From: Lishizhenia sp.
GTDB lineage: Bacteria > Bacteroidota > Bacteroidia > Flavobacteriales_D > Crocinitomicaceae
DNA: 32,028 nucleotides
Assembly: GCA_007117355.1 (NCBI GenBank)
Contig: SKGS01000251.1
Coordinates: 1-32,028 of the forward strand
Direction of reading: 5' to 3'
Shown here: one piece after another, positions 24,349 through 24,631 of the stretch
Position numbering within the stretch: the stretch's first letter is position 1
Layout: every line of letters begins with the position of its first letter
The notes under the pieces: model-generated
Told to the model about the DNA's origin: nothing
Database searches by the model: none
What the model saw: only the letters and a program-made list of their open reading frames with translations
Position numbers and translations under genes: made by a program

Positions 24349-24378
24349 TTTGAGATAGAGATAAAGCCATTATCTTTG
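24349..24378 (+). promoter_or_regulatory. Promoter-like sequence inside the pfkA-fba gap
   Basis: TTTG (24349-24352) and a perfect TATCTTTG (24371-24378) are separated by 18 bp. Both boxes match the Bacteroidota consensus exactly. Initiation would fall near 24384, only about 65 nt before a strong terminator, so this promoter appears to drive a short RNA. Confidence 0.65.
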
Positions 24379-24383
24379 AATCA

Positions 24384-24448
24384 AGATTTAGGTGATTAGG
24401 TTAGGTTAATGTGTTAAAGAGAGACAACGCCCGTTGTTCTCTCTTTTT
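24384..24448 (+). ncRNA. Candidate small RNA between pfkA and fba
   Basis: A consensus promoter at 24349-24378 and an intrinsic terminator at 24416-24448 enclose about 65 nt without a plausible reading frame. The 5' part, before the hairpin, is a single-stranded-looking G/U/A-rich stretch with three TTAGG words (TTTAGG, ATTAGG, TTAGG at about 24388-24406), which could pair with target mRNAs. The ends are estimates. The alternatives are that the hairpin is just the pfkA terminator, or that the unit is a leader that attenuates fba, whose own promoter is downstream. Confidence 0.45.
24416..24448 (+). terminator. Intrinsic terminator in the pfkA-fba gap
   Basis: AAAGAGAGACAACG (24416-24429) pairs with CGTTGTTCTCTCTTT (24432-24446), with one bulged T on the right arm and a small GCCC loop, followed by a T-tract. 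It can end both pfkA readthrough and the short RNA started at about 24384. Confidence 0.88.
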
Positions 24449-24601: not shown

Positions 24602-24631
24602 GTATTACTAGAAACAATTTTACTACTTTTG
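24599..24631 (+). promoter_or_regulatory. Candidate promoter of fba
   Basis: ATTG (24599-24602) and a perfect TACTTTTG (24624-24631) are separated by 21 bp. The -7 box ends 19 nt before the fba ATG, the same distance as for serS and accD. Confidence 0.6.

Follow-up and report, generated by a model that had tools for sequence, protein, structure and literature searches.

A multicopy small RNA family of the Crocinitomicaceae with conserved UUAGG words and an RRM protein as candidate partner

A segment lying between pfkA and fba (positions 24349 through 24448) in a 32,028-nucleotide (nt) stretch of a Lishizhenia sp. genome (GCA_007117355.1, contig SKGS01000251.1; the whole stretch is herein the window) is, as judged by sequence comparison, one copy of a real and previously uncatalogued small RNA (sRNA) family. 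The segment would encode a member of a multicopy, trans-acting family of the Crocinitomicaceae, and we put at slightly better than an even chance the proposal that these RNAs are multicopy ligands of RRM-S, a small basic-tailed RNA recognition motif (RRM) protein, which they would probably titrate through UUAGG sites. The first-pass annotation had suggested a candidate sRNA with its own promoter and terminator at this locus, and the conserved, covarying and dispersed family described here strongly supports that suggestion.

A DNA search of 59 relatives found the element at unrelated places, several per genome, instead of in an orthologous gap; one genome carried four copies within ∼0.8 kb. In Lishizhenia tianjinensis, four tandem copies of the window's type (type A), each with its own terminator, lie within ∼750 bp (L091:4688-5441). 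Searching the genome collection for the pattern TTTAGGTGRTTAGGTTAGGTTRAT gave 78 matching stretches, of which nearly all belong to Crocinitomicaceae (Fluviicola, Brumimicrobium, Lishizhenia and metagenome-assembled genomes [MAGs]). The type-A comparison set comprised 84 distinct copies, 68 of which share an identical 28-mer 5′ block (GATTTAGGTGGTTAGGTTAGGTTGATTA). In nearly all of the 84, a -7 element, TAnnTT, stands four bases 5′ of the block (fixed columns: T 96%, A 98%, T 99%, T 99%); promoter positions outside this element are variable. The stem that follows varies in sequence but keeps its pairing: 89.7% of cells are paired (69.8% in shuffled alignments), double changes number 119 (37.5 in shuffles), and the covariation score is 0.658 (0.276 shuffled), with every slid alignment far worse. 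The apex takes the form A-C-[GCCC, GCCU, GCUC, UCCC, GCCA or ACCU]-G-U, most often ACGCCCGT (47 of 84 copies), then ACGCCTGT (17), ACGCTCGT (12) and ACTCCCGT (4). Taken together, a promoter, an invariant, probably unpaired leader and a covarying terminator are the signature of a transcribed sRNA. Rfam 15 returned no match for the window at or above the gathering score, and sub-threshold Rfam scans of the copies gave chance-level matches plus a weak FopS match of type D (see below). A two-quartet G-quadruplex in type A (GG-U-GG-UUA-GG-UUA-GG) was considered and rejected as the principle that is conserved, since type B is without the tracts and the sequence of the window copy is GGUGA.

The window copy displays the full arrangement on the forward strand. 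Beyond the stop codon of pfkA (23339 through 24322, from the open reading frame call and translation), which lies 62 nt 5′ of the RNA, is the promoter that the first-pass annotation had described, which is of Bacteroidota type: a -33 element TTTG (24349 through 24352), matching a family profile that is TTTG-rich at the same position, and, after an 18-nt spacer, the -7 element TATCTTTG (24371 through 24378). Six nucleotides separate this element from the conserved block, compared with four in most copies, and we infer a +1 near 24383-24386. The predicted sRNA of ∼70 nt (24385 through 24455) scores 69.8 bits with covariance model R1 (whole-genome E = 2.9e-15), far beyond chance, the window copy being one of the 29 sequences from which that model was built. 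It opens with the near-invariant block GATTTAGGTGATTAGGTTAGGTTAATGT (24385 through 24412), which is probably single-stranded and, from its sequence, is the putative binding module for an RRM protein. The three TTAGG words noted previously begin at 24388, 24396 and 24401, and examination of the window's open reading frames again revealed none across the promoter-terminator segment. The strong hairpin terminator was likewise recovered at 24416 through 24446, with its GCCC tetraloop within the conserved apex (24427 through 24434) and a T-rich tail (24442 through 24455) that probably also ends pfkA transcripts, giving it a putative dual role. The fold of 24385 through 24455 has a predicted energy of -17.1 kcal/mol (z = -2.3 relative to shuffled sequences). 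A generic promoter and terminator scanner reported neither promoter nor hairpin at this locus, because it relies on E. coli-type promoter rules and on a terminator rule that fails on the bulged stem. As the earlier reading held, fba (24651 through 25718, open reading frame call) has a separate promoter, with a -7 element TACTTTTG at 24624 through 24631.

The window's genome contains seven related copies of four types: four of type A (C108, C176, C244, which is the window copy, and C262) and one each of type B (AGTAGTAGTAGGTTAGGTTGATTAGTGT...), type C and type D. UAGG or UUAGG words are common to all types and the ACGCCCGU apex to most; types B, C and D are without AGGUGRU but have UAGGUUAGG-like words. 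Cousins of type D (L151:1284-1355, L157:1219-1287 and L163:1501-1546(-)) carry TTTTCAT or TTTCAT, complementary to AUGAAA, together with AGTAGTAG and TTAGG-like words. Model R1 finds matches in 140 of 200 Crocinitomicaceae genomes and 21 of 24 genera. An order-level search gave only four weak matches outside the family, and a phylum sample gave one canonical type-B copy outside the order, the remaining matches being mostly weak terminator look-alikes. This type-B copy (L239:1501-1574(-), genome G669) belongs to another family and may reflect transfer, contamination or an older origin. Some copies lie in records with surprising names. Three (L073, L074 and L082) are on CP034120.1, recorded as Glaciecola amylolytica; a genome search places that genome in the Crocinitomicaceae, and the name appears to be wrong. 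Others (L028, L058, L068, L079, L080 and L105) are in MAGs labelled Kuenenia, Actinomyces viscosus or Chryseobacterium gleum, labels that look unreliable.

All 84 type-A copies are intergenic, in every orientation relative to their neighbors, and an all-against-all comparison shows these neighbors to be unrelated genes. The first-pass annotation had found a metabolic regulator an attractive inference from the position between two glycolytic genes. None of the other 83 copies adjoins pfkA or fba, their neighbors are unrelated genes, and the fba loci of two relatives (L004 and L009) have neither pfkA nor the sRNA upstream; as the location is not conserved, the metabolic idea is unsupported, and we reject a metabolic role by position. 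One and the same site, 3′ of a gene that by its sequence looks WbqC-like, is occupied in 21 loci from several genera and is therefore probably old. The upstream gene is on the same strand in 56 of 79 copies (p = 3e-4), a preference by which the sRNA terminator may serve that gene too. Of the 79 copies with a called downstream gene, 44 have it on the strand opposite to their own. Two contigs of the IMG/VR virus collection also carry type A. One copy (L107:5936-6005) lies in a tailed phage, flanked by head genes on one side and DNA methyltransferase genes on the other; for the second (L106:9323-9395), the flanks are dnaE-like chromosomal genes and a methyltransferase gene of phage type, an arrangement that may mark the edge of a prophage.

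Hfq was not found in any of the 35 relatives searched, with five control genomes positive, and RRM_1 proteins are common. A profile (A2) built from small basic-tailed RRM proteins cleanly separates RRM-S from acidic-tailed RRM proteins (at least 149 bits vs. at most 104 bits). RRM-S has the canonical residues of RNP1 and RNP2, and its match to hnRNP A1 chains has E ∼1e-11. Co-occurrence of the sRNA with any RRM_1 protein is only a trend and becomes sharp once RRM-S is split off: at E ≤ 1e-6 the sRNA is found in 13 of 14 genera with RRM-S and 1 of 10 others (Fisher p = 7e-5), and at E ≤ 1e-3 in 108 of 113 genomes with RRM-S and 32 of 87 others, both comparisons ignoring shared ancestry. Counterexamples with strong matches are mostly genomes that are fragmented or incomplete and whose genera do have RRM-S.

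The start of the RRM-S gene itself provides a second connection: the UUAGG words of the sRNA recur there, which suggests that RNA and protein act jointly in a control circuit. In a first gene set, TTTAG was noticed upstream of RRM-S starts. Fresh genes confirmed the signal: a second set had TTTAGG before 5 of 18 RRM-S genes vs. 2 of 1034 background genes, and a third had TTAGG before 11 of 20 vs. 6 of 1034. When all 5-mers in the 25 nt before 54 RRM-S starts were ranked, TTAGG came first (19 of 54 vs. 0.6%) and TAGGT second; Fluviicola leaders hold up to three copies of the word. TTAGG precedes none of eight RRM genes of other families and is absent within 60 nt in four acidic-tailed RRM genes. 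RRM1 of hnRNP A1 binds UUAGGUC with a Kd of ∼290 nM and both of its RRMs prefer UAGG (PMC5503513), making UUAGG a normal word for an RRM. Because UUAGG runs in the same sense in the sRNA and the leader, pairing between them through this word is impossible, and, on the sequences, a common protein would be the simplest link between them. Separately, the RRM-S leader of genus g3 (L258, ∼720-777) holds TAACCACCTA, the reverse complement of type-A TAGGTGGTTA, which is either a possible 10-bp pairing or chance.

In the proposed mechanism, the primary-sigma promoter would direct synthesis of a ∼70-nt RNA starting at the conserved G(A)UUUAGG (start expected at GAUUUAGG), with an unpaired module of UUAGG and UAGG words in the 5′ half and a stable intrinsic terminator in the 3′ half. 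The 5′ module would most likely bind RRM-S, which would also recognize UUAGG at its own translation start, resulting in autocontrol, and would bind other mRNAs as well. With several sites on RNAs from several loci, the sRNAs would compete for RRM-S, as sponges rather than clients, and free both the RRM-S mRNA and other mRNAs from its action. Extended to the whole cell, the same scheme becomes a Csr-like global circuit built on an RRM protein, in which RRM-S represses its own and other mRNAs via start-codon UUAGG and is sponged by UUAGG sRNAs that are dispersed over each genome in as many as a dozen copies, fall into four or more sequence types and are also phage-borne; this extension is tentative, and we give it somewhat less than an even chance.

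Several observations weigh against titration of RRM-S. Two MAGs of genus g4 (G004 and G025; 96-97% complete) have three strong sRNA matches each and no RRM_1 gene that we could find, which breaks the co-occurrence most clearly, and a single joint gain of sRNA and RRM-S could explain the co-occurrence, the statistic being uncorrected for phylogeny. The RRM-S leader of the window's own genome is without UUAGG, as are those of g3, g6 and g7; these have UUUAG or nothing in its place. AGG before ATG could in part be a Shine-Dalgarno-like signal, and the background genes were drawn from fewer genera than the RRM-S genes. Finally, conservation of the whole 28-nt block, not of UUAGG alone, suggests an extra constraint such as base pairing.

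That last point leads to an unlikely but serious alternative, in which several mRNAs would be targeted by antisense pairing, with the 5′ block as seed and RRM-S as chaperone or antagonist, as RbpB is for FopS. FopS is organized alike, as a multicopy RNA of 65-70 nt with a primary-sigma promoter, a single-stranded seed at its 5′ end, a terminator and a partner of the RRM type (PMC11697453); conservation in our family spans the entire block beyond UUAGG, and type D has TTTTCAT, complementary to AUGAAAA, and a full-length alignment to the FopS model at 26.5 bits. Type A, however, is without the FopS R1 seed, none of 200 genomes reaches the FopS cut-off, and a comparison of type A with 625 start regions, all from one genome, gave no more complementarity than shuffled sequences do (mean -12.6 vs. 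-13.0 ± 0.25). This null result weakens the case for base pairing, although a few specific targets would escape a sample of one genome.

The other explanations are far less probable. That the element is only a conserved terminator or dispersed repeat with no regulatory RNA function is highly improbable: a same-strand gene often precedes the copy, so that the hairpin may end its transcript, and two copies are on virus-collection contigs, but a terminator needs neither a fixed-spacing promoter nor an invariant unpaired 28-mer, and the stems differ and covary amid unrelated flanks, unlike those of a recently copied repeat. Fainter still is the prospect that the sRNA acts on ribosomes by occupying the anti-Shine-Dalgarno, AGGUGRU resembling the complement of the 16S 3′ end. 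AGGUGAU and AGGUGGU can pair with AUCACCU of 16S ends, and the sole recurrent change in AGGUGRU, G to A, still pairs with U; the match is short, however, and the motif is absent from types B, C and D, which keep UAGGUUAGG-like words. Least credible of all is that the element acts in cis on the gene that follows it (fba in the window), as a leader or attenuator. A promoter and then a terminator before a gene do look attenuator-like, but the frequent opposite-strand orientation of the downstream gene contradicts this for the family, and fba has its own promoter.

Sponging of RRM-S can be set beside known systems, of which FopS/RbpB of Bacteroides is the closest in kind. FopS (RF04319) of Bacteroides thetaiotaomicron is a many-copy paralogous family whose partner, RbpB, is an RRM-1 protein, and it too has been reported on a phage (PMC11697453). 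The two families share many copies per genome, a primary-sigma promoter, an unpaired conserved 5′ end, an intrinsic terminator, a length of 65-70 nt, an Hfq-less Bacteroidota host with an RRM-1 protein, and presence on phage. They differ in bacterial family and in 5′ sequence (GTGTTTTTCATAGTATTAGATTTAAGGTTAACAAA in FopS, UUAGG repeats in the Crocinitomicaceae sRNA), and the latter is further set apart by its conserved ACGCCCGU apex and by UUAGG at the start of the RRM gene. None of the 200 family genomes reaches the curated FopS score of 56 bits, type-D copy L151 attaining 26.5 bits; weak FopS-model matches (E ≤ 0.05) occur in 18 of 200 genomes vs. ∼10 expected by chance, and few overlap the sRNA family. 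The R1/R1′ seed of FopS, complementary to SusC start regions, is absent in types A, B and C, and only type D has TTTTCAT or TTTCAT. On these alignments the two may be distant relatives, with type D (L151) a possible evolutionary bridge.

CsrB/CsrC and RsmY/RsmZ are sponge RNAs that titrate CsrA/RsmA through GGA sites in hairpin loops. The principle (PMC12119571) is shared in that short repeated words, here of proposed protein-binding function, occur in the sRNA and the same word recurs where translation begins on a gene proposed to be regulated, in this case that for RRM-S itself. The partner there is CsrA and here a proposed RRM fold, the A(N)GGA sites in hairpin loops are replaced by UUAGG in an unpaired leader, and the Crocinitomicaceae sRNA is much shorter, occupies many more loci and has no homology. 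The likeness to RRM1 of hnRNP A1 is limited to the RRM domain and its preferred word UAGG; hnRNP A1 is a eukaryotic splicing factor with two RRMs.

RbpB/FopS is the main worked case for the general question of how sRNA regulation is organized in Hfq-less Bacteroidota. The Crocinitomicaceae sRNAs add a second multicopy family, apparently a separate one and from outside the gut Bacteroides, and their covariance model could annotate well over 140 genomes. A specific candidate partner, with a candidate binding word at that protein's start codon, makes the question experimentally addressable in aquatic bacteria. If the proposed circuit is correct, bacteria would possess a system of RRM protein and sponge RNA whose origin is independent of CsrA.
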